64,000 nt of DNA from Albidovulum denitrificans (GTDB lineage: Bacteria > Pseudomonadota > Alphaproteobacteria > Rhodobacterales > Rhodobacteraceae): NCBI RefSeq assembly GCF_002973535.1, contig NZ_PVEP01000003.1, positions 1 through 64,000 of the forward strand, given 5' to 3'. The translations under genes were made by a program, and so were the position numbers. Of the stretch, positions 2,760-18,956 are shown piece after piece. The notes below the pieces were generated by a model, which was not told the origin of the DNA, ran no database searches, and saw only the letters and a list, made by a program, of their open reading frames with translations. Position 1 is the first letter of the stretch. Every line of letters starts with the position of its first letter.

Positions 2760-3605
2760 TTACTGTTCGTCGGCCTGTTGTTCGGCATCCTGGATGAAGC
2801 CGCGCAGCTTGTCCGTCATGCGGCTGGCGATGAGTTCTTTCGCCTGATCCACCGAGGGGAGGTCTTTTGCATCGCCTAGTTTTTCCCGGACGGCTTTTGC
2901 TTTCTGTCCCGTCTGGCGGGAGATCGGATAGACTTCGCCGTGAAAATCCACGGCCACATGACCACGCTCCCCACAAGCTAGAACATAGCCCTGTTCTTCC
3001 AGAGCGCGGGCAAACGAGGCGCGATTGTCGGAAACCGACCAGCATTCGCGGAAGGTCATCTTCATCGCTTTGAGGTCTTGCTTGCAGCGCCCCGCCTGCT
3101 GCCACTCTGCCAGAGTGAAGTTCAGGGGGTTGCGCCTGGTCTTGTCCCGGTATCCATCCGGCAGCCGCCAGCCATGTTCCAGGAACAGTTCTTTGGAGAC
3201 TTCGTTCAGGCGGGTTTTGTAGAAGGGCAGGTTGATGGCCTTCATCTGTGACGGATCAATCCGCGACCACACGACATGAGCATGGCGGCGACCGTTCTTC
3301 TCATGAAAAACAATCGCGCGGGCATACCCGTCCAGACCGAGTCTGGTTTCGGCCTTCTCAATGGCAGCCTCAAAGTCTTTGACACTGACCCGTTCGGTTT
3401 CCGGCGGGTTGAAGCTGATCGAAAACAAATGGTTTGTGCAACGTGTTCCGGTTGCTATCGCGTCAGCTTCCCGGAAAGCCTCGATCAGATCGTCACTGAC
3501 AAACCCGCGCACCTCATGCAGTTCGACGTGATCGTTATCGCGCATGGCAAGCAGGTAGTGTGCCAGTTGTAGCGCGTCCCCCCGTTCTTTTCCGGTTACG
3601 AGCAT
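2760..3605 (-). CDS. MOBP/VirD2-type relaxase, short form
   Basis: This is a mobilization relaxase, the nuclease that nicks oriT and pilots a DNA strand during conjugation. The N-terminal pattern MLVTGKERGDALQLAHYLL with a following HEVRGF is that of the relaxase/mobilization nuclease family. The three-histidine metal site is seen as HEKNGRRHAHVVWSRID (H101, H108, H110). I chose the ATG at 3605 because it lies one base after the mobC stop and gives the canonical N-terminus; an upstream ATG at 3656 would overlap mobC by 50 bp. At 281 residues it lacks the long C-terminal region of many relaxases, so it may be a minimal or truncated form. No type IV secretion genes are in the window, so it could act only in trans with another system. 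Confidence 0.85.
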   Translation of the reverse strand: MLVTGKERGDALQLAHYLLAMRDNDHVELHEVRGFVSDDLIEAFREADAIATGTRCTNHLFSISFNPPETERVSVKDFEAAIEKAETRLGLDGYARAIVFHEKNGRRHAHVVWSRIDPSQMKAINLPFYKTRLNEVSKELFLEHGWRLPDGYRDKTRRNPLNFTLAEWQQAGRCKQDLKAMKMTFRECWSVSDNRASFARALEEQGYVLACGERGHVAVDFHGEVYPISRQTGQKAKAVREKLGDAKDLPSVDQAKELIASRMTDKLRGFIQDAEQQADEQ

Positions 3606-3606
3606 G

Positions 3607-4083
3607 TCACGTCTCCCCGGAATCGGTTCCGGCGGATTCGTGCAAACTTCCATCACGTCCGAGTGCCCGCATCAGTTCGGCTCTCATGGCGATGACGGCA
3701 GCGCAGGCGCGTTGCAGGTCTTCTTCCACCTCCGGTGTTAGGGGCAACGTGCCGATATTGGCCGCTTTCGCCAGTTGGTTGAGATTGCCGGCCAGACGCA
3801 TATTGCCAAGCATGCCGAGCACTTGCGCCAGTGCTGCATGGTCTTTGACAGGCGCTCTTCCGCGCGTTCGGCGGGGCGACAGGTCGCCGTCAAACAATCT
3901 GGCCTTGATGTAGCTGCCGAGCGGCATATCTGCCGCAGCAGCGTCCAGTTTTGCCCGTTCCTCATCGCTCAGGCGCAGGGAGAACGGCGGCGGTGTCTTC
4001 ACCTTCCGGCGAACAGGTTTGCGGGCTGACTCGGCGAAGACAGGCTGGGCGTTCTGGATGTTCTGGCGCGGGAGCTGGTTCAT
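3607..4083 (-). CDS. mobC: MobC-like relaxosome accessory protein
   Basis: The 158-residue protein has the features of plasmid mobilization proteins of the MobC type, which bind near oriT and help the relaxase open DNA. A ribbon-helix-helix-like segment PPFSLRLSDEERAKLDAAA (about residues 32-50) is followed by PLGSYIKARLF and by the family's NLNQLAKAANIG motif around residue 105. The N-terminus is basic. Its start codon overlaps the stop of a tiny upstream ORF (ATGA) and its stop is one base from the relaxase start, so all three are probably co-translated. Function is assigned by motif and neighbour, not by a strong catalytic signature. Confidence 0.8.
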   Translation of the reverse strand: MNQLPRQNIQNAQPVFAESARKPVRRKVKTPPPFSLRLSDEERAKLDAAAADMPLGSYIKARLFDGDLSPRRTRGRAPVKDHAALAQVLGMLGNMRLAGNLNQLAKAANIGTLPLTPEVEEDLQRACAAVIAMRAELMRALGRDGSLHESAGTDSGET

Positions 4084-4744: not shown

Positions 4745-5003
4745 ATCGGTGGCTTGGCGCTGGACGTTGCAGATCGTCAAACGCTCCGATACCGTGCAGG
4801 GCTTCGAAGTCATCCCGCGGCGCTGGGTGGTCGAACGCACCCTCGCGTGGCTCGGACGGTGTCGCCGCATGGCCAAGGACTGGGAAAAAACCGTCGCGAG
4901 TGCAGAGGCATGGATCCTCATCGCCCACATCCGGCGCGTCACGAGGCTCCTCGCAAGGGCAGAACATCTCATAGGTAATTTCGAATCCGATTCTCAGATA
5001 TAG
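4745..5003 (+). pseudogene. IS5-family transposase 3' fragment
   Basis: Residues LQIVKRSDTVQGFEVIPRRW, VVERTLAWLGRCRRMAKD and ILIAHIRRVTRLL form the C-terminal end of an IS5-family (IS427/IS1031-like) DDE transposase. The glutamate of the DDE triad is in the VVERT segment. The N-terminal two thirds, including the first two aspartates, are missing and the open frame enters from the BKACE remnant. The fragment ends about 10 bp inside the 3' end of the convergent lysR gene, so the insertion or deletion that left it may have altered the last codons of lysR. Confidence 0.8.
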
Positions 5004-5953
5004 ATCCGCTCCTCCAGCGGCGTCTGTTCTATCGTTTCCAGAAGACGTTGCAGCATCGCCTGTTCGGCCCTGTTGGAGCGTGTCCTCGGATTCCATGCGA
5101 CGTGAACGTCAATTGCAGGCGGGTTCTCATAGGGCGGGAGTCTCCAGAGCCGTCCGGCGGCGACGTCCTCTGTCACGACATGGATGGGCAGCGGACCGAT
5201 GCCGAGCCCCGCGACGATCAGGCGGCGGACCTCTTCCAGATTGGCCGAGGTGCCGACGATCCGGTCGTCCAGCCCGGCAGAGTTGCGCATCAAGGTCACG
5301 GCGCGCAGGGCGTCGGTCATCCTGTCGGTGACGAAGCTGACCGAGGCCTGCCCGCTCAACTCGTTCAGCGTCAGGCCCTCGCGTCCGAAGAAAGGATGGG
5401 TGGGGCCGCAGAAGAGGCCGAAGAATTCGCGAAACAGGCGCCGGTACTGCAGGCCTGGGCTATGCTCGTTGACAAGGCAGACGGCAAATGAGGCGCGGCG
5501 CGCGTTGACGGCGTCGATCGCCTCGCGACTGGCCATGATGTCGATCGACAGCGTCGCCGCCGGATGCGCCCGGTGAAATTCGCTTAGCGCGGAATCGAGC
5601 AGCGGGGACACGACATGGCTTGCCATGGCGATGGAGACATGACCGCGCACTTCGTCCCCGATGTCGCGCATCACCGTGCCGAGGCGAAGGATCGCGCCGT
5701 GGATATCCGTCGCCTCGGCCTGAAGCAGGCGCCCCGCCGCGGTCAGCTCGAACCGCCCCGGACCGCGGTCGAACAACTTTTTGCCCAGCCGGTCCTCCAG
5801 CCGTTTCAGCGCGCTCGACACCGATGGCTGCTTGAGGCCGAGCCGGTTGGCGGCGTCGGTCACCGAGCGCGACTGCGCAAGCACCAGGAAGGTGCGCAGC
5901 AGGTTCCAGTCAAGATCGCGGGCAAGTCGTTCTGCCGAAGGTACGCCGGTCAT
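4994..5953 (-). CDS. LysR-family transcriptional regulator
   Basis: A 319-residue LysR regulator. The N-terminal winged helix-turn-helix (residues about 17-75, with VTDAANRLGLKQPSVSSALKRLEDRLG) is followed by a two-lobed ligand-binding domain. It is divergent from the importer/catabolic operon at 6059-13846, 105 bp away, and so is the probable regulator of that operon, sensing a pathway substrate or intermediate. The ATG at 5953 is the only good start. Its C-terminus (EERIYI) is encoded next to the end of an IS5 fragment and may have been changed by that event. Confidence 0.92.
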   Translation of the reverse strand: MTGVPSAERLARDLDWNLLRTFLVLAQSRSVTDAANRLGLKQPSVSSALKRLEDRLGKKLFDRGPGRFELTAAGRLLQAEATDIHGAILRLGTVMRDIGDEVRGHVSIAMASHVVSPLLDSALSEFHRAHPAATLSIDIMASREAIDAVNARRASFAVCLVNEHSPGLQYRRLFREFFGLFCGPTHPFFGREGLTLNELSGQASVSFVTDRMTDALRAVTLMRNSAGLDDRIVGTSANLEEVRRLIVAGLGIGPLPIHVVTEDVAAGRLWRLPPYENPPAIDVHVAWNPRTRSNRAEQAMLQRLLETIEQTPLEERIYI

Positions 5954-6058
5954 AGCTATAGCTTAGATCAATAATTGGAATTTTCATTATCTATTTGATT
6001 TATGCCCCCTCCGCCATGCACCCTGTTGCAAGGCTTCGCATGGGGGACCAATCAAGCG
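5954..6058. promoter_or_regulatory. Divergent promoter/operator region, lysR and importer operon
   Basis: This AT-rich interval contains the dyad ATAAT-N10-ATTAT at 5971-5990. It fits the T-N11-A style of LysR binding sites. It lies just upstream of lysR and about 70 bp before the first operon start, where autoregulation and activation of the divergent operon are usual. Confidence 0.55.
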
Positions 6059-6925
6059 ATGAGCATCGAGGCACGCGAAAGACGTCAGCCTTGGATCTTG
6101 CTGTCGCCTGCTTTGACGGCGGTGGTTCTTCTCTTGATCGTTCCGCTTCTGTTCATCGTCGTCTATTCGTTCTGGCTTCGCAGCGCGACGGGGGCCGACA
6201 CCGCGGGCTTTTATCTCGACAACTGGAAAAAGGTGCTGAGCGATCGCTTCTATCGCGACATCCTGTTCAGCACGCTCAGGATTGCCGCCATCACGACCGC
6301 CGCCTGCGCGCTTCTTGGCTATCCGGCCGCCTATTTCATCGCACGGTCAAGGGGCAACAAGCTGATCCTGCTGGTCCTGCTGATGCTGCCGTTCTGGATC
6401 AGCTACATCATCCGCACGATGAGCTGGATCAACATCCTCGGCACCTCCGGCGCCCTGAATTCGCTTCTGCTGATGCTGGGCGTCATCTCGGAGCCGATCC
6501 AGATGCTCTACAACGAAACGACCGTGATCCTCGGGCTGGTGCATTTCCTGCTGCCCTTCATGGTGCTGAACATCTATGTCAGCCTCGAAGGGATCGACAC
6601 CAATCTTGAAGATGCGGCGAATTCGCTGGGGGCGACCCGGTGGCAAAGCTTCCTTCAGGTGACGCTGCCGCTGTCGCTGCCCGGCCTCGCCGCCGGGGGG
6701 CTTTTGTGCTTTGTCCTTGGCGCCGGCACCTACATCACCCCGGTGATCCTGGGCGGGCCGCGCGATGCCATGTTTGCGAACCTCGTTTTCGAGGCGATCA
6801 TCCGGCAGCTGAACTGGCCGCTTGGGTCGGCTCTGTCGCTGCTTCTGCTGGCCGTCCTTGGCGCGCTGGTCCTGATCTACAACCGCTATCTTGGCATGTC
6901 GCAGCTTGCGAAGGGGTTGGGCTGA
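6059..6925 (+). CDS. ABC importer permease, PotB-like
   Basis: This is an inner-membrane permease of a spermidine/putrescine-type ABC importer. The 288-residue protein (from the ATG at 6059) has about six transmembrane segments, beginning ILLSPALTAVVLLLIVPLLF. The EAA loop that contacts the ATPase is LEDAANSLGATRWQSFLQV. I chose the ATG at 6059 because it gives the normal short cytoplasmic N-terminus (MSIEARERRQPW); an ATG at 6002 would add 19 unlikely residues inside the promoter region. It is the first gene of the operon, and its TGA overlaps the ATG of the second permease by one base. Confidence 0.9.
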   Translation: MSIEARERRQPWILLSPALTAVVLLLIVPLLFIVVYSFWLRSATGADTAGFYLDNWKKVLSDRFYRDILFSTLRIAAITTAACALLGYPAAYFIARSRGNKLILLVLLMLPFWISYIIRTMSWINILGTSGALNSLLLMLGVISEPIQMLYNETTVILGLVHFLLPFMVLNIYVSLEGIDTNLEDAANSLGATRWQSFLQVTLPLSLPGLAAGGLLCFVLGAGTYITPVILGGPRDAMFANLVFEAIIRQLNWPLGSALSLLLLAVLGALVLIYNRYLGMSQLAKGLG

Positions 6926-7728
6926 TGGGGGAAGGCAGAGGTTGGGGCTGGTCGGTCATCCGCGCCTATACGGTGCTGGTCTATCTCTTCATGTTCCTGC
7001 CGGTCGCGGTGGTGGTTCTGCTGTCTTTCAACGCCAGTCAGTTCGGCGCCTTTCCGATGACCGGGTTCTCGTTCCGCTGGTTCCAGGCATTGTGGGAGAA
7101 TGACGCGATCGTCCGGGCCTTTCGTACCTCGATCGCGCTGGGGCTGATGACGGCGCTGGTTTCAACCACGCTTGGTGTTCTCGCGGCGCTGGCGCTGGTC
7201 CGTTACAACGTTCCGGGCCGCGACATGATCACGACGCTGCTGATCGCCCCGATCCTCGTGCCAGAGGTGGTTCTGGCCGTGGCCTTGCTGCTTTTCCTGA
7301 ACTTTCTCAACATCAACAAAAGCTTCGGGCTTCTCCTGATGGGGCATGTGATCTTCACGCTGCCCTTCGTGATCCTCGTCGTGCAGGCGCGGCTCGTCTC
7401 GATCCGCAAGGATGTGGAGGAGGCAGCGCAAAGCCTTGGGGCCACGCCGCGGCAGACCTTCTTCGCCGTGACGCTGCCACTGTTGATGCCCGCCGTTGCA
7501 GCCGGTGCGCTTTTCGCCTTCACGATCAGTTTCGACGACATCACCGGCACGCTCTTCTGGAAGCCGGGCGGGGTTGAGACGGTCCCGACGCAGATCTTCT
7601 CGATGCTGCGCAACTCCATCTCGCCCGAGATCAACGCCCTCGGCACGGTGATGATCGTGATGACCGTGGGACTTCCCGTGATCGGCGCCGGGATCGCCCG
7701 GCTACTCGCAAGACGACGGGGCGCGTGA
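6925..7728 (+). CDS. ABC importer permease, PotC-like
   Basis: This is the second permease of the importer, 267 residues, with about six transmembrane helices. The EAA loop is VEEAAQSLGATPRQTFFAV and the first helix is around VLVYLFMFLPVAVVVLLSF. The start at 6925 forms TGATG with the previous stop, indicating coupled translation. Together with the first permease it forms the heterodimeric channel; the pair is of the type used for polyamines, other cationic amines and opines. Confidence 0.9.
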   Translation: MGEGRGWGWSVIRAYTVLVYLFMFLPVAVVVLLSFNASQFGAFPMTGFSFRWFQALWENDAIVRAFRTSIALGLMTALVSTTLGVLAALALVRYNVPGRDMITTLLIAPILVPEVVLAVALLLFLNFLNINKSFGLLLMGHVIFTLPFVILVVQARLVSIRKDVEEAAQSLGATPRQTFFAVTLPLLMPAVAAGALFAFTISFDDITGTLFWKPGGVETVPTQIFSMLRNSISPEINALGTVMIVMTVGLPVIGAGIARLLARRRGA

Positions 7729-7765
7729 CCGAAAGCGCCCTGCGAACACAACAAGGAGATACGAC

Positions 7766-8908
7766 ATGGACAATACGACACGCTACGAACGACTGCGCGA
7801 CCGCTACCGCAATGGCGACATCTCTCGCCGCAAGTTCTTTGGGCTGATCGGAGCGGCGGGCGCCGCCTACGGATTGCAGACCCCCTTCGCGAAATATGCG
7901 ATGGCGCAGGACGTTAAGCAGGTGCGCTTCGACGGTTGGGGTGGTGTCGTGTCGGAGGCATTCCGCAAGCATGCATTCGACCCCTTCACCGCAAAGACCG
8001 GCATCACCGTGGTCGATGGCACCTTCCCCGGCGGCGACGAATATCTGGCGCAGGTTCGCGCCTCGCAGCCCGGCGAATACAACATCGCCCACCTGTCCGG
8101 GGTCTTCGACTATGCCCGTTATCACAACTTCGATCTGACGAGCGAGCTGAACCTCGACAACATCCCGAACATGGCGAACGTCATGCCGGCGCTTATCAAC
8201 GCCTTCCACGCCGTGACGCCCGACAGCCTGAGCGCGGCCCCCTATGACTATGGCTCCACCGGGCTTGCCTATAACCGCAAGTACATCTCGGACGACGAGG
8301 CGAAGGAAAAGGGTGCCATGCTGCTGATCGACGATGCCTACAAGGGCAAGATCGGCGGGTGGAGCGACTGGCGCACACGGGTCTGGTACGGCGCGTTGCA
8401 GACCGGGCAGGACCCGAACGACATTCAGGACATCGAAGCGGTGTGGGACGCCGTGCGCAAACATCGCGACCTTGCGCTGAAATACTGGGCCTCGGGCGCG
8501 GAACTGATGAGCCTTCTGGCCGAGGAAGAGATCTACGTGACCGAAGCCTGGTCGGGTCGCGTCTATGCGCTTCAGGAACAGGGCCATGACATCGGCTATT
8601 ACGACCCGCCGAAGGGCTTTGGCTGGCAGGAATGCCTGTTCGTCATCAAGGGCAGCCCGATGGAGGCGTGCGAGGAACTGTTGAACTTCATGCTGGACAA
8701 GGAAACCTCGATCGCGGTCGCGGAAGGGCAGAACTATCCCCCCGCGCTTGACCCGACGAAGGTGGACCTCGGCAAGAAGATCCCGACCTTGCCGGCATTC
8801 GATCCGACGGGCACGCTGGCGGGCCTGACCTTCGCGAACCCGGAATACTGGAACGGGCACGAGGCCGACTGGTCCGAAACCTTCAGCCGCGTCCAGCGCG
8901 GGTACTGA
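7766..8908 (+). CDS. ABC importer substrate-binding protein, PotD-like, Tat-exported
   Basis: This is the periplasmic solute-binding protein that captures the substrate for the importer. The 380-residue precursor carries a twin-arginine signal (SRRKFFG, residues 20-26) and a hydrophobic stretch, with probable cleavage after KYAMA near residue 48. The mature part has the fold of extracellular solute-binding family 1 (PotD/PotF-like). A good Shine-Dalgarno AAGGAGA stands ahead of the ATG at 7766. Export by Tat is less common than Sec for PotD proteins. The ligand cannot be read from sequence; neighbours suggest an amine or diamino acid. Confidence 0.9.
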   Translation: MDNTTRYERLRDRYRNGDISRRKFFGLIGAAGAAYGLQTPFAKYAMAQDVKQVRFDGWGGVVSEAFRKHAFDPFTAKTGITVVDGTFPGGDEYLAQVRASQPGEYNIAHLSGVFDYARYHNFDLTSELNLDNIPNMANVMPALINAFHAVTPDSLSAAPYDYGSTGLAYNRKYISDDEAKEKGAMLLIDDAYKGKIGGWSDWRTRVWYGALQTGQDPNDIQDIEAVWDAVRKHRDLALKYWASGAELMSLLAEEEIYVTEAWSGRVYALQEQGHDIGYYDPPKGFGWQECLFVIKGSPMEACEELLNFMLDKETSIAVAEGQNYPPALDPTKVDLGKKIPTLPAFDPTGTLAGLTFANPEYWNGHEADWSETFSRVQRGY

Positions 8909-8967
8909 CAGCAACCCTGCCGGTCCCGCCTCGCGGGGCCGGCAACAGATGGATTGGACCTTACACC

Positions 8968-10053
8968 GTGAGCGCCGTCACCCTGACCGACATCGTCAAG
9001 CGATTTGGCAATTTCACCGCCGTCCACAGGATGTCGCTGGAGATCCCGCAAGGCAGCTTTGTCACGTTGCTGGGACCGTCCGGTTGCGGCAAGACGACGA
9101 CGTTGAGGATGATCGCGGGGCTTCTCGATCCGACCGAGGGCGATATCGCGATCGGCGGCAACAGGATGAACAACCTGCCGATCCACCGCCGCAACCTCGG
9201 CATTGTCTTTCAGAACTACGCTCTTTTTCCGCACAAGACGGTGGCCGACAACGTCGCCTTCGGCCTCAAGTACCGCAATGTCCCGAAGGACGAGGCGCGG
9301 CGGCGCGTCGCGGAGGCGCTGGAATTGGTGCAGCTTCCCAACCTTGGCTCGCGCTATCCCAAGGAATTGTCGGGCGGGCAGCAGCAGCGGGTGGCGCTGG
9401 CCAGGGCCATCGTGATCGAACCCGACGTTCTTCTGCTTGATGAACCGCTCTCGGCACTGGACGCGAACCTGCGTGAAGATATGCGGGTGGAACTGAAAAA
9501 CATTCAGCAGAGGATCGGCGTCACCACGGTTTTCGTGACCCATGACCAGACCGAGGCGCTGGCAATGTCCGACCTCATCATCGTGATGTCCGATGGTCGT
9601 GTCGAACAATTGGGCGCCCCGGAAGAGGTCTACAACACGCCCGCAACCGAATTCGTCGCCCGCTTCCTTGGCGCGTCCAACATCATCGAGGGGACCTGCA
9701 CAGGCATCGAGGGCGGAGAATTGTCGTTGGACGTGCCGGACTTTCCGAAACTGAGGGTCCCGCGCGCCCGCGCCCCGCACGTTACGGGCGCCGGTCCGGT
9801 CAAACTGGTCATCCGCGCGGAAAAGCTGACGGTCGCACCGCGCGCGGCCGCCGCCACGGATGGTTTCGCGCTGGATGCAACGGTTGAGACGGTGGATTAC
9901 CAGGGGCAGTCGGCGCGCTATTTCCTGCGTGCCGGTCGCCATCAATTGCAGGCGATCAACATGATCGACGACCATCTCTTCGCCGCCGGTGAAGAGGTTT
10001 CCGTGCGGTTCCGGGTCAAGGATTGTGCCGCACTTCCCCATGAGGGCCAATGA
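8968..10053 (+). CDS. ABC importer ATP-binding protein, PotA-like
   Basis: This is the ATPase of the importer. Walker A GPSGCGKT is at residues 36-43, the signature LSGGQQQR near 135, and Walker B VLLLDEP just after it. The H-loop lies in FVTHDQTEALA. A TOBE domain occupies the last 120 residues. The start is a GTG at 8968, with no in-frame ATG nearby. Order in the operon (permease, permease, binding protein, ATPase) differs from E. coli potABCD. The stop overlaps the aminotransferase start. Confidence 0.93.
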   Translation: MSAVTLTDIVKRFGNFTAVHRMSLEIPQGSFVTLLGPSGCGKTTTLRMIAGLLDPTEGDIAIGGNRMNNLPIHRRNLGIVFQNYALFPHKTVADNVAFGLKYRNVPKDEARRRVAEALELVQLPNLGSRYPKELSGGQQQRVALARAIVIEPDVLLLDEPLSALDANLREDMRVELKNIQQRIGVTTVFVTHDQTEALAMSDLIIVMSDGRVEQLGAPEEVYNTPATEFVARFLGASNIIEGTCTGIEGGELSLDVPDFPKLRVPRARAPHVTGAGPVKLVIRAEKLTVAPRAAAATDGFALDATVETVDYQGQSARYFLRAGRHQLQAINMIDDHLFAAGEEVSVRFRVKDCAALPHEGQ

Positions 10054-11399
10054 TGAGCAAGAGCCATCTTTTCTATCAAAGCGATACCAGCAGGCCGGTT
10101 CTGGCCGAAGCGCGTGGCATCTACATGTGGGACGTGGATGGCCGCAGGTATATCGACGGATCGTCCGGTGCGATGGTGTCGAATATCGGTCATTCCAACC
10201 CGAACGTCCTTGAGGCGATGCGCCGGCAGATGGAGAAGTCCACCTTTGGCTATCGTCTTCATTTCGAAACCGAGCCGGGCGAGCATCTGGCCGCGAAGGT
10301 GGCCTCGCTCACCCCCGAGGGTATGGAGAAGGTGTTCTTCGTGTCCGGCGGATCGGAGGCCGTGGAAAGCGCGATCAAGCTGGCGCGGCAATATGCCGTG
10401 ACGGTCGGACAGAGGAGCCGGTGGAAGGTCATCTCGCGCGCGCCCTCCTATCACGGGTCCACCCTCGGTGCGCTGGCACTGACCGGGTATGATCCCCTGA
10501 CCCGGCCCTTCGAACCGATGATGCAGGCGATGCCAAAGGTCCCGGCGCCGCGGGCCTATCTCGACGGGCTGGACATCGACGACCCGGCGACCGGCGCACA
10601 TTACGCCGCGATGCTTGAGGCGAAGATCCTTGAAGAAGGGCCGGAAAGCGTTCTGGCCTTCATCCATGAACCCGTCGGCGGCGCCTCGACCGGGGCGCTG
10701 GTCCCGCCTGCCGGATACATGCAGGCCGTGCGCGAGATCTGCGACCGCCACGGCGTTCTCCTGATCCATGATGAGGTGATGTCGGGCGGGGGGCGCACCG
10801 GCCTGTTCCTCGGCGCTGATCACTGGGGCGTGGCGCCCGACATCATCGCCATCTCGAAAGGGTTCGGCGCAGGCTATGCGCCTTTGGGCGCGATGATCGC
10901 CCATGACCGCCTGGTCGATCCGGTGCTGAAGGGGGGCGGCTTCATGCACGGGCATACCTATGCCGGCAACCCGCTTGCCTGCGCGGCCGGTCTTGCGGTT
11001 CTGGAAGAGATCGAGGCGGGCGCCATGATGGACAACGCGGCCAGGGTCGGCCAGCGGCTCAAGTCCCGGCTGGGCGATCTGATGCAGCGCTACAGCTTTA
11101 TCGGCGACGTGCGGGGCAAGGGGCTTTTGCTGGCGTTCGAATTCGTGTCCGACCGGCGCACGATGGCACCGCTGCCCAAGGCGCTGAACGCCTATCACCA
11201 CTTTGTCGAGATGGCCTATGCCGAGGGCCTGATCGTCTATTCGCGCCGAACGCGAAACGGGCTTGAAGGGGATCACATCCTTGTCTGCCCGCCGATGATC
11301 ACCACCGATGAACAGGTTGAGGAGATCCTCGAGATGCTGACGCGCGCGCTGGACCGCTTCGAAGCAAAGGTATCGCCCGCCCTGCCGCGAAGCGCCTGA
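10050..11399 (+). CDS. Class III PLP-dependent aminotransferase
   Basis: This 449-residue enzyme is a class III (omega/beta-amino acid type) aminotransferase. PLP-binding residues seen are D241 in LIHDEVMSGGGRTG and Lys270 in ISKGFGAGYAPLGA. The GGSEA and YHGST motifs fit the subgroup. Class III enzymes transfer amino groups from omega- or beta-amino acids or diamines to pyruvate or 2-oxoglutarate. Coming directly before a BKACE gene, it could supply the beta-keto acid by deaminating a 3-amino acid. Two ATGs in tandem (10050 and 10053) overlap the preceding stop. The true substrate is unknown. Confidence 0.92.
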   Translation: MMSKSHLFYQSDTSRPVLAEARGIYMWDVDGRRYIDGSSGAMVSNIGHSNPNVLEAMRRQMEKSTFGYRLHFETEPGEHLAAKVASLTPEGMEKVFFVSGGSEAVESAIKLARQYAVTVGQRSRWKVISRAPSYHGSTLGALALTGYDPLTRPFEPMMQAMPKVPAPRAYLDGLDIDDPATGAHYAAMLEAKILEEGPESVLAFIHEPVGGASTGALVPPAGYMQAVREICDRHGVLLIHDEVMSGGGRTGLFLGADHWGVAPDIIAISKGFGAGYAPLGAMIAHDRLVDPVLKGGGFMHGHTYAGNPLACAAGLAVLEEIEAGAMMDNAARVGQRLKSRLGDLMQRYSFIGDVRGKGLLLAFEFVSDRRTMAPLPKALNAYHHFVEMAYAEGLIVYSRRTRNGLEGDHILVCPPMITTDEQVEEILEMLTRALDRFEAKVSPALPRSA

Positions 11400-11408
11400 G
11401 GAGAGACA

Positions 11409-12335
11409 TTGTCGAAGATCATCATTACCTGCGCCGTCACCGGATCAATCCACACGCCGTCAATGTCGCCCTATCTGCCGGTCACGGCCGAAGAGATCGC
11501 AGGGCAGGCGATCGGCGCAGCCGGGGCGGGCGCCGCGATCCTCCACCTGCATGCCCGCGATCCGCTGACGGGTCAGCCTTCGGCCTCGGTCGATCACTAC
11601 CGCGCCTTCCTGCCCGCGATCGGCGCCGAAACCGATGCCGTGGTGAACCTGACGACCGGGGGCAGCGCAGTGATGAGCCTGGATGACCGTCTTGCGGCGC
11701 CGCTCGCGCTGCGGCCGGAAATGTGTTCGCTCAACATGGGGTCGATGAACTTTGCACTTTACCCGATGCTCGGCAAGCGAACCGAATGGCTGCACGACTG
11801 GGAGGAGCCGTTCCTGCGCAATTCCGATGACCTCGTCTTTAAGAATACCCCCCGCGACATCGAAGGAATCCTGAGCCGGATGGGTGCCGAACGCGGCGCC
11901 CGGTTCGAATTCGAATGCTACGATGTCGGTCACCTCTACATGCTGAAACACTTCGCTGACCGTGGCCTCGTCAAATCGCCGATTTTCATCCAGTTCGTGA
12001 TGGGCGTGCTTGGCGGCATTGCTGCCGATCCCGACCATCTGGACCATCTGAAGGCGACCGCCGACAAGCTGTTTGGCGATGGCTACGTCTTCTCGGTTCT
12101 CGCGGCGGGCCGGATGCAGATGCAGATGGCGGAAAAAGCAGCGTCGATGGGGGGGCATGTCCGCGTCGGGCTGGAGGACAACCTCTATATCGCCAGGGGC
12201 CAGCTTGCGAAATCCAATGCCGAGCAGGTCGAAAAGGTCAGGGACATCGTGGAAGCCGTCGGGCGGACCGTTGCGTCGCCTGACGAGGCGCGCGCCATGC
12301 TGGGGCTGAAGGGCCGGGACAAGGTAGGCTTCTGA
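11409..12335 (+). CDS. Beta-keto acid cleavage enzyme (BKACE/Kce family, DUF849)
   Basis: Members of this family condense a beta-keto acid with acetyl-CoA and split it into acetoacetate and a shortened acyl-CoA; the founder is 3-keto-5-aminohexanoate cleavage enzyme. The metal site is seen as H46 and H48 in LHLHARDP, with E256 in VGLEDNLY. Length (308 residues) is normal. The start is TTG at 11409, preceded by GAGGAGAG; no better ATG is in frame. Position right after an aminotransferase supports a keto acid made by deamination of a 3-amino acid. The next gene begins immediately after the stop. The exact keto acid cannot be told from sequence. Confidence 0.92.
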   Translation: MSKIIITCAVTGSIHTPSMSPYLPVTAEEIAGQAIGAAGAGAAILHLHARDPLTGQPSASVDHYRAFLPAIGAETDAVVNLTTGGSAVMSLDDRLAAPLALRPEMCSLNMGSMNFALYPMLGKRTEWLHDWEEPFLRNSDDLVFKNTPRDIEGILSRMGAERGARFEFECYDVGHLYMLKHFADRGLVKSPIFIQFVMGVLGGIAADPDHLDHLKATADKLFGDGYVFSVLAAGRMQMQMAEKAASMGGHVRVGLEDNLYIARGQLAKSNAEQVEKVRDIVEAVGRTVASPDEARAMLGLKGRDKVGF

Positions 12336-12821
12336 ATGCGGCAGTCTGTGACGATCCGGCTTGCCGGGCCTGCGGATACGGCCCTTCTTGACCGTGCGCT
12401 TCGGGCGCTGTCTGACCATCTTGGCGACACCCACAGGGCGACCGAGGCCTGTCTTGCCAAGGCGGGGTTCGGGGCAACACCCGCCTTCCGGGCGCAGATA
12501 GCCCTGGCGGCCGATACCGCCGTCGGGGTCGCGCTGTACTCTCCCCTTTATTCCACGACGCGGGCCATGCCGGGCGCCTATGTATCCGATCTCTGGGTCG
12601 CGCAAGAGGTGCGGGGCGGCGGGCTTGGGAACAGACTTCTGGCCGCGGTTCGGGATGATGCGGGCGCGCAATGGGGCGCCGGTTTCATCCGGCTTTCGGT
12701 CTATACCGACAACCCGCGCGCGGTCGCCTTCTACGAACGCAGCGGGTTCAGCCCGCGTAGGGATGAAATCGGCATGTTGCTGGAGGGCGAGGCGCTGGCG
12801 AGAATTGGAGAGACGACATGA
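12336..12821 (+). CDS. GNAT-family N-acetyltransferase
   Basis: The 161-residue protein has the GNAT fold. The acetyl-CoA loop is seen in VAQEVRGGGLGNRLLAAV (about residues 88-105), and VYTDNPRAVAFYERSGF is the usual C-terminal motif. It starts directly after the BKACE stop (TGAATG) and overlaps the deacetylase start by 4 bp, so it belongs to the operon. In this setting it may acetylate the terminal amino group of a diamino acid or polyamine before further breakdown; this is inferred. Confidence 0.88.
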   Translation: MRQSVTIRLAGPADTALLDRALRALSDHLGDTHRATEACLAKAGFGATPAFRAQIALAADTAVGVALYSPLYSTTRAMPGAYVSDLWVAQEVRGGGLGNRLLAAVRDDAGAQWGAGFIRLSVYTDNPRAVAFYERSGFSPRRDEIGMLLEGEALARIGETT

Positions 12822-13846
12822 AGGCCTTTTATGACGACCGCCAGCGCGTGCATGACCCGAAGATGTTCATGGCCAACGGCACGCGCCTGCCCAACCCCGA
12901 ACAGCCTGCCCGCATCGACGTGCTGCGCGCCGGGGCCGAGGCGGCAGGATGTGGCTTTGATCCGGTCACCGATCACGGAACGGGGCCGATCGCGGCCCTT
13001 CATACTGCCGAATACCTCGTCTTTCTTGAAACGATCCACAGCCGCTGGAGGCGGATCGAGAACGCGTCGGATGAGGTGATCCCGAACATCCACCCCGACC
13101 GCCGCACCGCGTCCTACCCGCGCTCTGCCGTAGGCCAAGCGGGCTTTCACCAGGCGGATACCTCCTGTCCCATTTCAGCCGGGACGTGGGAGGCGTCATA
13201 CTGGTCGGCCCAAACGGCCCTTTCGGCGCTTGACGCCGTTCTGGCAGGCGACAGTGCCGCCTATGCGCTCTGCCGCCCGCCGGGGCATCATGCCTTCAGC
13301 GACCTTGCCGGAGGGTTCTGTTTTCTGAACAACTCCGGCATCGTCGCGGAAGCCGCATTGAAGCTTGGCCGACGTCCGGCGATCTTGGATGTCGATGTCC
13401 ATCACGGCAACGGGACGCAGGGCATCTTCTACCATCGCCGCGACGTGCTGACGGTTTCGATACATGCCGATCCCGTCCGGTTCTACCCGTTCTTCTGGGG
13501 GCATGCCCATGAACGCGGCGCGGGGGAAGGGCTGGGCTACAACCTCAACCTTCCCTTGCCTCGGGGGACCGATGACGCGGGCTATCTGACCGCCCTCGAT
13601 AGCGCGCTCGACAGGGTCCGGGCCTTTGGCACCGATCTGCTGGTCGTGGCGCTGGGCCTTGATGCGCATGAGAATGACCCATTCCAGGGCTTCAAGGTAA
13701 CGACACCCGGTTTCGCGCGCATCGCCGAACGGATCGCGGCGGCAGGCATTCCGGCCGTCATCATGCAGGAGGGGGGCTATCTTCAGCCGGATCTGGGCGA
13801 CAACCTGACAAGTTTTCTAACGGGGTATCGGCACGGCTGTCGGTGA
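12818..13846 (+). CDS. HDAC-like amidohydrolase (acetylpolyamine amidohydrolase type)
   Basis: A zinc amidohydrolase of the arginase/deacetylase fold, the bacterial relatives of class II histone deacetylases that remove acetyl groups from small amines. The His pair is H157-H158 in RPPGHHAF; zinc ligands are D193 and H195 in DVDVHHGNGTQ and D282 in LGLDAHENDPF; the catalytic Tyr is Y321 in EGGY. All catalytic residues are present at normal length (342). It is the last gene of the operon, starting inside the GNAT stop (ATGA). It could deacetylate an acetylpolyamine, or 4-acetamidobutyrate made downstream of the BKACE step. Confidence 0.93.
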   Translation: MKAFYDDRQRVHDPKMFMANGTRLPNPEQPARIDVLRAGAEAAGCGFDPVTDHGTGPIAALHTAEYLVFLETIHSRWRRIENASDEVIPNIHPDRRTASYPRSAVGQAGFHQADTSCPISAGTWEASYWSAQTALSALDAVLAGDSAAYALCRPPGHHAFSDLAGGFCFLNNSGIVAEAALKLGRRPAILDVDVHHGNGTQGIFYHRRDVLTVSIHADPVRFYPFFWGHAHERGAGEGLGYNLNLPLPRGTDDAGYLTALDSALDRVRAFGTDLLVVALGLDAHENDPFQGFKVTTPGFARIAERIAAAGIPAVIMQEGGYLQPDLGDNLTSFLTGYRHGCR

Positions 13847-14742: not shown

Positions 14743-15588
14743 TCAGGGCTTGACGAACTTCGCCCCGCCCGCGCCGCGCGCGCCGAATTGCGGTGCCGGG
14801 CGGATACCAGCGCGCGCCTGTGCCTGATCGGCGGGCGCCTCCTGGCTTACCGCCGCGCCCTCGCCCCGGCGCAGCGCCGCCTTCAGATCGGCGACGACGC
14901 CGGGCAGTTCCATCCCGACGGCAAATTCCTTGCCCTGCCCGCTTATCCCGGCAGAGACCAGCGACACGATGGAAGCGCGGTTGCCCATGCGGTGAAAGAC
15001 CGGCGCGCCGGATGACCCGAAGGTCACGTCGCAGTCGAAGGCGATGAGGCCCTGCGCCCGGCCAAGCACGTTGCACTTGTCGTCCCAGGACAGCGCCTCG
15101 GACCGGCCGCGCCCGTAGGAGACGACCGAAAGGTCGCGCGCGTTGGCATTCAGCGCATCAACCTGGAACGGCGCCGCGACCGAAAGCGAAACCGGCGCGG
15201 CAAGCTGCATCAGGCCCGCGTCGTAACGGATCGTCTCCATCCTGTCGGGCGCGTCGGGATCATAGCGCGGATGCACCACCATGCGCGTCACGCCCGATTG
15301 CGCCAGCGCCTGCCCGTCGCTCAGGCCAGCACGGAAGGTCACTTTCGAGGGCTGGACGTAATGGTCGCTTCCACCAAACAGGCAATGCGCGGCGGTCAAG
15401 ACCAGATCGGGCGCGATCAGAACGCCGGTACAGAACCCCTTCTCCGCCATCTCGACGCGACCGACCGCTTCCCAGCCAAGAACATCCTGCCGAAGCGTCA
15501 GCCGTTTCAGCGGCGCATCGGCAAGGGCCGCCTGCGGCATCACTGCAAGGACGGCAAGCGCCCCGACCCATATCGCCCCGCGCCTCAT
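14743..15588 (-). CDS. Secreted trypsin-like serine protease (second of a tandem pair)
   Basis: An S1-family (trypsin-like) serine protease with an N-terminal signal peptide (MRRGAIWVGALAVLAVMPQA, cleavage near ALADA). The catalytic triad is visible: H68 in LTAAHC, D123 in YDAGLMQL and S193 in GSSGAP. It overlaps its upstream paralogue by 4 bp (ATGA), so the two are coupled. The C-terminus ends GGAKFVKP after a linker of about 40 residues rich in Ala, Gln and Pro; the paralogue ends in nearly the same motif. It probably acts in the periplasm or outside the cell; substrate unknown. Confidence 0.9.
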   Translation of the reverse strand: MRRGAIWVGALAVLAVMPQAALADAPLKRLTLRQDVLGWEAVGRVEMAEKGFCTGVLIAPDLVLTAAHCLFGGSDHYVQPSKVTFRAGLSDGQALAQSGVTRMVVHPRYDPDAPDRMETIRYDAGLMQLAAPVSLSVAAPFQVDALNANARDLSVVSYGRGRSEALSWDDKCNVLGRAQGLIAFDCDVTFGSSGAPVFHRMGNRASIVSLVSAGISGQGKEFAVGMELPGVVADLKAALRRGEGAAVSQEAPADQAQARAGIRPAPQFGARGAGGAKFVKP

Positions 15589-16394
15589 GGCTTGAGGAAC
15601 TTCGCCGCGCTCTTGGCGGTCGATCCGAAGACCTTGGTCCCGCCGCCGGGCGACACCTTGACGAAACCGGATTGGCCCGCCTGAAAGGCCGCCCGCAACT
15701 CCTCAAGCGGGCGTTCCATTTCCGAGCCGAGCGCGACCTTCTTGCCGCCCATTTCGGCCTTGGCCGACACGACGGAGACGATCTTCGGCTCCCCCCCGAT
15801 CATCTCGAAGACCGGCGCGCCGGAGGACCCGAAATCGACGTCGCAGGACAGGATCGTCATGCCCGGTTCATTGCCAAGCACATGGCAGAGGTCCTGGATC
15901 GACGGCGCCTCCGCCCGGTCGAGCGCATAGGAAACGATGCCGACCGAATCCCCCGTGACCGTGTCCGGCCCGGTCTCGAACGGGCGGATGGAGGGCAGGC
16001 GGATCGGGTGGTCAAGCTCAAGGAAGGCGATGTCGTAGGGGACCCGGTCGATCCGGTCGCGGCCCTCGAACACATAGTTCGGATGGGCGACGGCCCGGCG
16101 CACGCCGCGATAGGCCGCCGCCCGCCCGTTGCGCCAACCGGCGAGGAATTCGAATTCTTCGGCCGGGATCTGCGCGCGGGTTTCCTGGTCAAAGATGCAA
16201 TGCGCGGCCGTCAGCACGATGTCGGGCGCGATCAGCGTCCCGGTGCAGAAGCCGCGATTGCCGACGTCGATCCGGCCCACAGCTTCCCAGCCCCGCGTGG
16301 CATCCGCCGTCGCGAGCGAGCGCAGCGGCGCTTCTTCCGCCGCCGACATCAGCGGCCAGAGAACCGCAAGACCGAATAGAATGAGCGTCCGCAT
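15585..16394 (-). CDS. Secreted trypsin-like serine protease (first of a tandem pair)
   Basis: This S1-family serine protease is paralogous to the following gene. With the ATG at 16394 the protein has 269 residues and a clear signal peptide (MRTLILFGLAVLWPLMSAAE). Triad: H65 in LTAAHC, D121 in PYDIAFLEL, S191 in GSSGAP. The C-terminus ends SAAKFLKP. A GTG at 16418, directly behind GGAGG, is an alternative start but gives a poorer signal peptide. The DNA between the two genes overlaps by 4 bp. The pair looks like an old duplication, since outside the active-site blocks the sequences have diverged. Confidence 0.88.
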   Translation of the reverse strand: MRTLILFGLAVLWPLMSAAEEAPLRSLATADATRGWEAVGRIDVGNRGFCTGTLIAPDIVLTAAHCIFDQETRAQIPAEEFEFLAGWRNGRAAAYRGVRRAVAHPNYVFEGRDRIDRVPYDIAFLELDHPIRLPSIRPFETGPDTVTGDSVGIVSYALDRAEAPSIQDLCHVLGNEPGMTILSCDVDFGSSGAPVFEMIGGEPKIVSVVSAKAEMGGKKVALGSEMERPLEELRAAFQAGQSGFVKVSPGGGTKVFGSTAKSAAKFLKP

Positions 16395-16443
16395 GACCCG
16401 TCCCGAAACCTGCCCCACCTCCTATCGCAGGCTTGGGGCGAGA

Positions 16444-17757
16444 TTAAGGCCTTTCCCGCCCGGCGGCCGCCAGCCCCTCAAGCGCCCGTGGCTTCGGCCC
16501 GCCGGTCGCCCAGTCGATCAGTTCGACGGTATGGACCACCGGGATCGCGGTCCCCGACCCGATCTGCATCATGCAGCCGATATTCCCCGCCGCAATCACC
16601 TGCGGCTGGCGCGCCTCAAGCGTCGCGACCTTGCGCCGTTTCAACTCGCCCGAGATCTCCGGCTGAAGCAGGTTGTAGGTGCCAGCCGATCCGCAGCACA
16701 GATGCGGGTCCGCCGGTTCCACCACCTCGAACCCCGCCGCTTTCAGAAGCGCCTTGGGCGCCGCCGTCACCTTCTGCCCGTGTTGCAGCGAACAGGCCGC
16801 GTGATAGGCGACGCGCAGCGGTTCGGGTGCGCGCGCCTCGGGCTTCAGACGGGTGAGCAGTTCGGTCACGTCACAGGCCAGCCCCGCGATCTGGCCTGCG
16901 TCATCGGCAAGGTCGGTGGTGCGGAACATATGGCCGTAATCCTTCACCGTCGTCCCGCATCCGCTGGTGTTGATGACGATCGCATCAAGGCCCCCTGCCC
17001 GCGCCTCGGCCATCCAGGCGCGGATATTGGCCGCGGCAGAGGCATGGCTTTCCCCCTCCCGCCCCATGTGATGGGTCAGCGCCCCGCAACAGCCCGCGCC
17101 CTGCGCCACCACGACCTCACACCCCAGCCGCCGCAAGAGCCGGATCGTCGCGTCGTTGATGTCGGTGTTCAGCGCCTTTTGCGCGCAGCCGGTCATCAGC
17201 GCGACGCGCATCCGCCGTTCGCCGGTGGCCGGGAAAACCTGCGGATCGTCGTTGCGGCTGACGGGCGGCACCTGTTTCGGCGCCATCGCCACCATGGCGC
17301 GCAGCCGCGCATCCGGCAGGAGCCGTGCGAAAGGCCGCGCCATCTTCGCCCCCAGAAGTGCCAGCCGGAACCGGGTGGGATAGGGGATCACCCGCGCCAG
17401 AACCCAGCGCAAGGCCCGGTCGCGCCAGAGACGGCGATAGGTCTTTTCGATATGCGCGCGGGCATGGTCTACAAGGTGCATGTAATGCACACCCGACGGG
17501 CAGGTCGTCATGCAGGCAAGGCAGGACAGGCAGCGGTCGATATGCTTGACGGTCTTCTCATCCGCAGGCCGGTCATTCTCCAGCATGTCCTTGATAAGGT
17601 AGATCCGCCCCCGTGGGCTGTCGAGTTCGTCGCCCAGCACCTGATAGGTCGGGCAGGTCGCTGTGCAAAAGCCGCAATGGACGCAAGCGCGCAGGATCTC
17701 GTTGGCGCGGGCGATGCCGGGGTCGCGGAGCTGCGCTTCGGTGAAATTCGTCTGCAT
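16444..17757 (-). CDS. glcF: Glycolate oxidase iron-sulfur subunit GlcF
   Basis: This is the electron-transfer subunit of membrane-associated glycolate oxidase, passing electrons from GlcD to quinone. Two 4Fe-4S motifs are seen: CVHCGFCTATCP (residues 25-36) and CLSCLACMTTCP (about 76-87). Two CCG repeats follow (GAGCCGAL and HLCCGSAG), as in the heterodisulfide reductase-type C-terminal domain. Length (437) is normal. It is last in glcDEF, its ATG overlapping the last base of the glcE stop codon. Confidence 0.96.
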   Translation of the reverse strand: MQTNFTEAQLRDPGIARANEILRACVHCGFCTATCPTYQVLGDELDSPRGRIYLIKDMLENDRPADEKTVKHIDRCLSCLACMTTCPSGVHYMHLVDHARAHIEKTYRRLWRDRALRWVLARVIPYPTRFRLALLGAKMARPFARLLPDARLRAMVAMAPKQVPPVSRNDDPQVFPATGERRMRVALMTGCAQKALNTDINDATIRLLRRLGCEVVVAQGAGCCGALTHHMGREGESHASAAANIRAWMAEARAGGLDAIVINTSGCGTTVKDYGHMFRTTDLADDAGQIAGLACDVTELLTRLKPEARAPEPLRVAYHAACSLQHGQKVTAAPKALLKAAGFEVVEPADPHLCCGSAGTYNLLQPEISGELKRRKVATLEARQPQVIAAGNIGCMMQIGSGTAIPVVHTVELIDWATGGPKPRALEGLAAAGRERP

Positions 17758-18917
17758 CAGCCCATCAGCCCCGGATTGAGAATGCCCCTCGGATCGAAAC
17801 GCGCACGCAGGCCCGCCGACAGGGCCGCGACCGCCGCAGGCTCCGGCGGGAACGGCGCGACGCGCGCCCGCGTGCCGGCCGAGGCCCGCATCAGGGTCGC
17901 GTGGCCGCCACGGGCGCGGGTCTCGGCCCGGATGACGGCCTCACCCGCATCGCCCGTATCCGGCACGCGGGTCCAGACCAGCCCGCCGCCCCAGTCCATG
18001 ACCGCGTCGGCCCCGATCCCGTTCCGCCCCAGCGCGGCAAGAAACCCCGGGGCGTCGGAGGGCCGCAGCGAAACGCGCCAGACGGCCCCGTCCCCGCCAT
18101 GAAACGGCGCGACATCCCGCACCGCCCGCCAAAGCGCCGCAACCGCCGCACCGTCCCGCTCCACCCGGACCTCCCCGAACGGGGCCAGCACCCCTGCCAG
18201 CCTGCCCGCGCGATAGTCCACCGACCCCGCGAACCCCTCGATCCGCAGCAGCGTCCCCCAGGGGCCATGCGCCGCCCCCGTCACGTCGTAGGGCGACCGC
18301 AGCGCCGCCGTCATCGCACCCACCGCCGCCGCCGGGTCAAGACCCGCCAGCACCAGCACCGCCGCCGCCTCGGGCGCGGGCAGGACCTTCAGGCTGACCT
18401 CGCTCAGCACCCCCAGGGTCCCCCAGGACCCCGCCATCAGCTTCACGAGGTCATAGCCGGTGACGTTCTTCATCACCCGGCCACCATTCTTCACCACCGT
18501 CCCGCTGCCATCCACGAACCGCACCCCCAGAAGCGCATCGCGGCAGGCCCCCGCCTGCACCCGGCGCGGGCCGGAGACATTGGCGGCCACCATCCCGCCC
18601 AACGTTGGCGCCCCTCCCGTTCCCAGAAGCCCGCGCCAGTCCGCAGGCTCGAAGGCCAGGCGCTGCCCTTCCGCCGCCAGCGCCACTTCCACCTCTGCCA
18701 AGGGCGTCCCAGCCCCGGCCACAAGCGTCAGGGCGCCCGGCTCATAAAGCCCGATCCCGTTCAAACCCGAAACATCCAGGTCCACACCCTCGACCACGCG
18801 CCCCACAGTGCGCGTCCCGCCGCCGCGAATACGCAGCGGGCCGGTCGCTTCCCGGATCGCCTCGGCCAGTTCCCTCTCTTCCGTTACCTTCACGACCCTG
18901 CTTTCATTGTGGTCCAA
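17757..18917 (-). CDS. glcE: Glycolate oxidase FAD-binding subunit GlcE
   Basis: This is the second FAD-linked subunit of glycolate oxidase. A PCMH-type FAD domain covers residues about 10-170 (PLRIRGGGTRTVGR, GLLGTGGAPTLGGMVAANVSGP split over the loop, and KNVTGYDLVKLMAGSWGTLG). The C-terminal part is short, as in GlcE rather than GlcD. It has 386 residues, lies between glcD and glcF and overlaps glcF by one base. The 39-bp gap from glcD holds a strong hairpin. Confidence 0.95.
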   Translation of the reverse strand: MDHNESRVVKVTEERELAEAIREATGPLRIRGGGTRTVGRVVEGVDLDVSGLNGIGLYEPGALTLVAGAGTPLAEVEVALAAEGQRLAFEPADWRGLLGTGGAPTLGGMVAANVSGPRRVQAGACRDALLGVRFVDGSGTVVKNGGRVMKNVTGYDLVKLMAGSWGTLGVLSEVSLKVLPAPEAAAVLVLAGLDPAAAVGAMTAALRSPYDVTGAAHGPWGTLLRIEGFAGSVDYRAGRLAGVLAPFGEVRVERDGAAVAALWRAVRDVAPFHGGDGAVWRVSLRPSDAPGFLAALGRNGIGADAVMDWGGGLVWTRVPDTGDAGEAVIRAETRARGGHATLMRASAGTRARVAPFPPEPAAVAALSAGLRARFDPRGILNPGLMG

Positions 18918-18950
18918 GTACTCCGGGGGTCCGGGGGCTGGCCCCCGGCC
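18912..18950 (-). repeat. GC-rich hairpin and gene-end element between glcD and glcE
   Basis: CCGGGGGC (18931-18938) faces GCCCCCGG (18941-18948). On the minus strand this is followed by GACCCCCGGAGTACTTGGAC, resembling the common Rhodobacterales gene-end sequence GCCCCCGGACCCCCGAGGTATTTGG. It may reduce transcription into glcE or stabilise the glcD message. Confidence 0.55.
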
Positions 18951-18956
18951 GCCCTC

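Follow-up and report, generated by a model that had tools for sequence, protein, structure and literature searches.

Eight genes of the same strand, at positions 6059-13846, make up an operon in a 64,000-nucleotide (nt) stretch of Albidovulum denitrificans DNA (contig NZ_PVEP01000003.1), here called the window. They encode an ATP-binding cassette (ABC) importer, a class III aminotransferase (hereafter the aminotransferase), a beta-keto acid cleavage enzyme (BKACE), a GNAT acetyltransferase and an HDAC-fold amidohydrolase. The operon is real, conserved and under local regulation; its candidate substrates, beta-lysine foremost, are weighed here. The first-pass annotation had placed an eight-gene operon at this site, and all open reading frames (ORFs) were found where it had put them; the families are upheld by Pfam, since 9 of 9 proteins, LysR counted, exceed the curated cut-off of a family. 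The divergent LysR gene, and the operator between it and permease 1, are additional to that annotation. The features are as follows.

4994..5953, minus strand: LysR-type regulator, divergent (Pfam HTH_1 and LysR_substrate)
5951..6004, outer limits approximate, no strand assigned: predicted conserved LysR operator region (core 5986-6004)
6059..6925, plus strand: ABC permease 1, PotB-like (PF00528; top NCBIfam model PotB, 203.2 bits, cut-off 348 missed)
6925..7728, plus strand: ABC permease 2, PotC-like (PF00528; top NCBIfam model PotC, 213.8 bits, cut-off 326 missed)
7766..8908, plus strand: binding protein with a twin-arginine (Tat-type RR) signal, judged by eye (SBP_bac_8; model pLDDT 80.6)
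8918..8944, plus strand: GC-rich hairpin of 12 bp between the binding-protein and ATPase genes (RNA fold)
8968..10053, plus strand: ABC ATPase with TOBE domain, GTG start (ABC_tran, TOBE_2)
10050..11399, plus strand: class III aminotransferase (Aminotran_3, 345.1 bits)
11409..12335, plus strand: BKACE, TTG start (PF05853, 366.7 bits)
12336..12821, plus strand: GNAT acetyltransferase (Acetyltransf_1, 52.3 bits)
12818..13846, plus strand: HDAC-fold amidohydrolase (Hist_deacetyl, 227.7 bits)

Permeases 1 and 2 overlap by 1 nt at 6925. Junctions overlap or touch from the aminotransferase onward, as had been noted at first pass: the ATPase and aminotransferase genes share 4 nt (ATGATGA at 10050), 9 nt separate the latter from BKACE, 0 nt BKACE from GNAT, and GNAT and HDAC genes overlap by 4 nt. 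The aminotransferase stays under the cut-off of its closest NCBIfam model, PRK07483 (464.7 bits vs 485). The hairpin has a folding energy of -30.2 kcal/mol over 68 nt (z -2.37), a value equalled by 3 of 200 shuffles.

Operator and conservation of the gene set

The operator corresponds to the consensus CATAGATnnnATCTATAn5AATn4ATTATCTATTTGATCTATG, and the outer arm of the region touches the LysR start codon. Matches were found upstream of LysR in 93 of 100 regions (<=5 mismatches in 18, scan made without shuffled control). The window copy at 5986-6004 has one mismatch, for a shuffled-window expectation of 0.01. Searched with <=3 mismatches, the 19-base core gave 24 matches in 16 of 20 genomes vs 4 for the reversed control; part of the 24, chiefly those with 3 mismatches, will be chance matches. 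The A. denitrificans genome has a single core match, at this operon, and none was found in genomes G379 and G074, though both have the operon.

GNAT homologues (E <= 1e-15) mark 61 of 390 genomes of the order, and 40 of its 139 genera. A search of genomes for the conserved gene set, suggested at first pass, found the aminotransferase, BKACE, GNAT and HDAC genes side by side in 23 of the 30 best-scoring GNAT loci (about 1.5 kb on each side, window counted). The grouping is not due to chance, given its conservation. Over wider segments (61 loci, window counted) the aminotransferase was found in 54, HDAC in 45, BKACE and a LysR homologue in 44 each. Named genomes scanned with an HDAC alignment gave, as the best 80 of 574 relatives, mostly Rhodobacterales, along with Stappia, Roseibium, Hoeflea, Mesorhizobium and Kiloniella. 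Among loci only distantly related to the window, GNAT homology by itself marks the operon poorly. In other families of the class, 32 of 40 loci, some on short contigs, have no aminotransferase, cleavage or deacylase genes beyond weak single matches; the remaining 8 (L181-L188) have the aminotransferase with cleavage or deacylase genes. A BKACE paralogue of A. denitrificans itself (42%, at C1:263424) has no other operon markers nearby.

Exchange of modules among related loci

Genes surrounding the aminotransferase have been tabulated starting from 180 loci (the window segment, L033-L092, L101-L192 and L248-L274; L001-L032, L093-L100 and L193-L247 are excluded). Twenty-seven loci in which the aminotransferase scored <400 bits or measured <85% of full length, L150 among them, were removed, and 153 kept. 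Bit thresholds and the 8.5-kb distance limit were chosen by us; the HDAC homologue of L259 (47%) is under threshold, and was scored as none. Loci were drawn from GNAT, HDAC and aminotransferase searches (for HDAC, the best 80 of 574), so that the counts are not an unbiased sample, and some are the same place fetched twice: 143 loci remain without near-copies. The aminotransferase homologues of L260 and L271 (about 50%) reside in other contexts.

BKACE lies within 8.5 kb of the aminotransferase in 126 of the 153 loci, subunits A and B of a 3-oxoacid coenzyme A (CoA)-transferase in 15, and the two modules together in none. Without near-copies, the figures are 118 for BKACE, 14 for CoA-transferase, 11 for neither and 0 for both. 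The first-pass proposal that BKACE takes the place of a thiolase is thus seen as an exchange between loci. A thiolase match was found within 8.5 kb in 10 of the 15 CoA-transferase loci (L149, L259, L266 and L273 among them), and the CoA-transferases of both loci tested (L056 and L259) exceed the TIGR02429 and TIGR02428 cut-offs. Switching between the two modules takes at least 4 steps on the aminotransferase tree, at least 2 of which are forced by its starred branches; this is a quick tree, in which the long branches of L259, L260 and L271 are placed unsurely. The deacylase is exchanged as well. HDAC was found in 130 of the 153 loci, an ArgE/DapE-type M20 enzyme in 18 (that of L056 passes the PRK06837 cut-off), both in 3. 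BKACE is combined with M20 in L184, L185 and L187, and the deacylase and cleavage exchanges are therefore independent. L259, from another class, features in one run the aminotransferase, CoA-transferase A and B, thiolase, a HisJ-type importer, HDAC and RidA. The operator also precedes CoA-transferase variants (for example L056) and L150, described below, and the variants therefore look like one regulatory system.

The mutual exclusion of BKACE and CoA-transferase supports an aminotransferase making a beta-keto acid for cleavage, as the replacement of HDAC by an ArgE/DapE-type deacylase supports removal of an N-acyl group. The simplest chemistry that the variants would have in common is conversion of an amine to a beta-keto acid, C2 cleavage and N-deacylation. 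On these comparisons it is probable, at odds of some three to one in our estimate, that the aminotransferase product is a beta-keto acid destined for cleavage and that the pathway includes loss of an N-acyl group.

GNAT is present in 127 of the 153 loci. Its nearest relatives are thialysine, diamine (SSAT2) and ornithine-N5 acetyltransferases (E about 1e-12 to 1e-7), the top PDB entry being the thialysine acetyltransferase 12jc (8.7e-13). Twenty-two of 124 HDAC-bearing loci lack a GNAT within 1.5 kb; only about 20-81 nt separate BKACE from HDAC in 15 of these, among which one weak GNAT match was found overall. Thirteen genomes of GNAT-less loci were searched. G773, G777 and G778 have a close GNAT elsewhere, and none was found in the other 10 (best E 4e-9 to 4.5e-26), several of which are metagenome-assembled, making absence uncertain. 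Strains without GNAT may import the already acetylated compound.

Two further HDAC contexts were seen on plasmids. In a Comamonadaceae plasmid (L265:9026-11468) a 56% HDAC homologue is followed by a phosphotransferase and a class III enzyme, which match the two halves of PRK06148, a layout that we take to resemble hydroxylysine kinase plus phospholyase. In an Azospirillum plasmid (L268:9662-10606) HDAC (51%) is found with an acetolactate-synthase-like protein, BKACE, a Zn-dependent hydrolase and a multi-gene ABC importer; this further HDAC-BKACE context has no operon-type aminotransferase in the stretch shown.

Candidate substrate and proposed route

We read the window genes as a catabolic operon, under LysR control, that acts on a beta-amino acid with an acetylated (or free) omega-amine, with beta-lysine or N6-acetyl-beta-lysine as best candidate, a reading to which we give slightly less than an even chance. 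Taken by itself, the identification of the substrate as beta-lysine or N-acetyl-beta-lysine, the best single candidate, has a probability of about one half. The substrate would be imported by the ABC importer, and its omega-amine, when free, acetylated by GNAT, a modification that would keep the later 3-oxo acid from cyclising. The aminotransferase would remove the 3-amino group to give 6-acetamido-3-oxohexanoate, the beta-keto nature of which is backed by the module exchange, and BKACE, with acetyl-CoA, would turn this into acetoacetate and 4-acetamidobutyryl-CoA. After loss of CoA, the HDAC-fold enzyme would take off the acetyl group, and 4-aminobutyrate (GABA) and acetoacetate would enter ordinary metabolism. 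More speculatively, the opposite enantiomer may enter the route in relatives, either through a racemase or through RidA and a DauA-like dehydrogenase.

The families of a beta-lysine pathway (N-acetyltransferase, aminotransferase, C2 cleavage, deacetylase) are all present and co-conserved, in putative roles. No aldehyde dehydrogenase occurs among the annotated clusters found in at least 9 of 141 loci (clusters 12 and 17 are unannotated, and no direct search was made), as expected if the aminotransferase makes a ketone. The A. denitrificans genome encodes GabT (603.7 vs cut-off 506.65) and ScoA, the 3-oxoacid CoA-transferase A (237.4 vs cut-off 128.5), and GABA and acetoacetate could therefore be used. 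KamA (TIGR00238) is absent from this genome, the only one searched for it; beta-lysine is therefore probably not made there, and would come from outside. Searches of open-access literature found no paper on BKACE with beta-lysine and, among the papers listed, none on a beta-lysine catabolic operon or another operon like this one; the first-pass annotation likewise knew of no described operon with exactly this gene set. Lysine breakdown in Phaeobacter inhibens is described as going via cadaverine and pipecolate, and the words beta-lysine and acetamido are absent from the main text of that study, as far as its accessible part extends (PMC5653290).

BKACE meets PF05853 (366.7 bits vs cut-off 24.8) and NF053538 (499.7 vs 430), misses the Kce model NF052387 (253.8 vs 382), and has PDB chains 3e49, 3e02 and 8rio as nearest relatives. 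A Kce-type lysine fermentation is disfavoured by the missed cut-off. In the accessible part of the paper on BKACE15 of Paracoccus denitrificans, the substrates tested are neutral beta-keto acids (PMC11961710). The DUF849 study, in the retelling available, describes groups for hydrophobic or uncharged polar, 3-keto-5-aminohexanoate (KAH), negative and positive substrates, among which promiscuity is common (PMC4922564). Membership in a group with a neutral-substrate tested member fits an acetylated amine, and by analogy an acetylated, uncharged keto acid would suit the window BKACE better than a free amine.

Several observations weigh against a beta-lysine operon. Neither cleavage module lies near the aminotransferase in 12 of the 153 loci. 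D-amino-acid modules, unexplained by a GABA end product, were found within 8.5 kb in 79 (DauA-like dehydrogenase in 62, lysine-racemase-like protein in 8, DgcA/DgcN-like proteins in 9; none in 74), never two in one locus. In many relatives HDAC is followed by a flavin adenine dinucleotide enzyme closest to D-arginine dehydrogenase (L106), plus RidA; by alignment, the L106 enzyme keeps the key residues of DauA, presumably those for basic D-amino acids. L150 consists only of a tripartite ATP-independent periplasmic (TRAP) importer, HDAC, RidA and a D-amino-acid-dehydrogenase-like protein, with a LysR of 56% identity and the same regulator type and operator as the window, and a search of its genome found no close aminotransferase (best 43%). 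None was found either in the genome of G140 (best 42%), which has GNAT-HDAC (L084). The last genes of L259 encode a P2C/Pip2C reductase, which exceeds its cut-off, and a D-amino-acid-dehydrogenase-like protein, the gene being truncated where the stretch stops. The BKACE model is named in NCBIfam after 3,5-dioxohexanoate, not an amino-keto acid. No thioesterase was seen among the annotated conserved clusters, in which no search aimed at it was made; one lies near the operon in L267. The first-pass annotation had assigned each enzyme a step of the beta-lysine route. The aminotransferase feeding a beta-keto acid to BKACE, and GNAT and HDAC acting on an N-acyl group, gain support from the module exchange, but a plain route from beta-lysine to GABA leaves unexplained the D-amino-acid genes, the loci in which HDAC occurs with neither aminotransferase nor BKACE, and the 12 loci.

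The D-amino-acid genes can be read in two ways: the flavoenzyme or racemase may act on the opposite enantiomer of the beta-amino acid, or a D-amino acid may be set free by HDAC. As a broader and distinctly tentative proposal, a widespread alphaproteobacterial regulon may degrade a basic amino compound hitherto unrecognised as a nutrient, one that gives rise to a beta-keto acid as well as an amino centre of D configuration. The HDAC-fold protein would be a metabolic amidohydrolase, BKACE a natural stand-in for CoA-transferase plus thiolase, and the compound could be acetylated beta-lysine in its two enantiomers, for instance, or a D-amino acid conjugated through an omega-acyl group.

The conjugate, taken as a specific alternative, we hold to be unlikely, at about one chance in five. 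HDAC (or M20) would split a conjugate in which the beta-amino acid forms the omega-acyl group of a basic D-amino acid; the beta-amino acid would go to the aminotransferase and BKACE, the D-amino acid to DauA/DadA plus RidA or to the racemase. This would account for the recurrence and mutual exclusion of the D-amino-acid genes, the kinship of the dehydrogenase with D-arginine dehydrogenase, the HDAC-dehydrogenase pair found apart from the main operon in L240, and the gene content of L150 and L259. In L177 an M20 enzyme accompanies a racemase whose nearest relative is lysine racemase 4dza; since this racemase exceeds the alanine racemase cut-off too (178.4 vs 168), it need not act on lysine. The DgcA/DgcN-like pair of L051 is under the cut-offs of those models. 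However, GNAT would be left without a clear job, and we know of no such conjugate in nature. DauA-like genes reside elsewhere too in 19 of 21 genomes searched, and their placement here may be loose. The A. denitrificans homologue (53%), at C11, is surrounded by peptidase- and methyltransferase-like ORFs and an amino-acid-type importer (by eye).

Marginally less probable again is that the same chemistry acts on another chain, a different beta-amino acid that carries another amine open to acylation (3,5-diaminopentanoate, 3,4-diaminobutanoate, 3,5-diaminohexanoate or similar), the end product not being GABA. All the module-exchange evidence fits any such compound, and chain length is fixed by no measurement. 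By chemical reasoning, however, the benefit of acetylation is greatest if an unprotected keto-amine would close a five- or six-membered ring, as with beta-lysine, and GNAT is nearest to enzymes acting on a lysine- or ornithine-like end amine.

A polyamine or acetylpolyamine, suggested by the Pot-type importer and the HDAC of acetylpolyamine amidohydrolase type, is improbable, as neither BKACE nor CoA-transferase would receive a beta-keto acid from it. The HDAC-fold protein (227.7 bits vs a domain cut-off of 27.9) has the acetylpolyamine amidohydrolases 3men, 9gkz and 3q9b as nearest PDB entries. Residues E106 and E117 of 3q9b, which we take to be the glutamates binding the polyamine ammonium, align with V105 and S116 and are not conserved; the nearby invariant D114 could stand in for them. 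The importer misses all the PotABCD equivalog cut-offs (PotA 351.6/482 and PotD 38.8/582, besides the two permeases). The best Foldseek matches of the binding-protein model include PotD, PotF, MotA and the Atu4243 GABA receptor, a family that serves amines, amino acids and opines. Importer type varies among relatives (Pot, HisJ, Liv, and TRAP in L150) while the enzymes stay; being exchangeable, it does not name the substrate. Versions in Mesorhizobium (L163:5507-7147) and Pararhizobium (L270:3515-5152) begin with an N,N-dimethylformamidase-beta-like protein, and a creatininase-family protein is found amid the importer genes in some Rhodobacterales; in these versions the first step is possibly amide or lactam hydrolysis. 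A beta-keto acid without nitrogen or of aromatic origin (3,5-dioxohexanoate, for example), suggested by the NF053538 match and name, is very improbable, since aminotransferase, GNAT, HDAC and amino-acid-type importers would have no role and the BKACE group is described, in the accessible account, as promiscuous (PMC4922564).

Judged by eye, two neighbouring ORFs at 183-2590 (505 and 297 aa) resemble an IS21-type transposase with helper ATPase, and two minus-strand ORFs at 2760-4083 (298 and 158 aa) a mobilisation relaxase with accessory protein; the latter suggest mobile DNA beside the operon. On the other side, the minus strand carries a tandem pair of trypsin-like serine protease ORFs with export signals (14743-16418) and three ORFs resembling glycolate oxidase GlcF, GlcE and GlcD (16444-20390), also by eye.

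If the beta-lysine reading is true, the operon supplies genes, regulator and operator for a route known to us from old biochemistry alone, a natural function for a BKACE subgroup hitherto named after activities in vitro, and a metabolic role for bacterial HDAC-fold proteins annotated just as histone deacetylase family. The module exchanges let each step be tested enzyme by enzyme. Should the link to D-amino acids prove right, it would indicate that a nutrient of marine and rhizosphere habitats has been overlooked.

Comparison with known systems

Kce of lysine fermentation is anaerobic and acts on a free-amine substrate. It shares fold and reaction type with the window BKACE, which differs in staying under the Kce cut-off. 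BKACE15 (8RIO/8RIP), considered here together with NF053538, is among the nearest solved relatives and takes neutral beta-keto acids; in the accessible part of its description, however, its genetic context is read as aromatic degradation, whereas the window BKACE is found amid aminotransferase, GNAT and HDAC (PMC11961710).

The acetylpolyamine amidohydrolases (3men, 3q9b) have the HDAC fold and are the nearest solved relatives of the window HDAC, which in contrast lacks the two glutamates in the alignment and resides in an operon of beta-amino acid type. Pseudomonas DauA, with RidA, is the nearest solved relative of the dehydrogenase behind HDAC in many loci, but is absent from the window operon.

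Bacterial beta-lysine degradation via N6-acetyl-beta-lysine is the route of Pseudomonas B4. Omega-amine acetylation, removal of the 3-amino group, C2 cleavage and deacetylation would all recur in the route proposed for the window, and the gene families of the CoA-transferase/thiolase variants match that aerobic route. The window operon differs from it in having a putative deacetylase of the HDAC fold and a BKACE, which would take up acetyl-CoA and release acetoacetate; its relatives differ in the presence of D-amino-acid genes.

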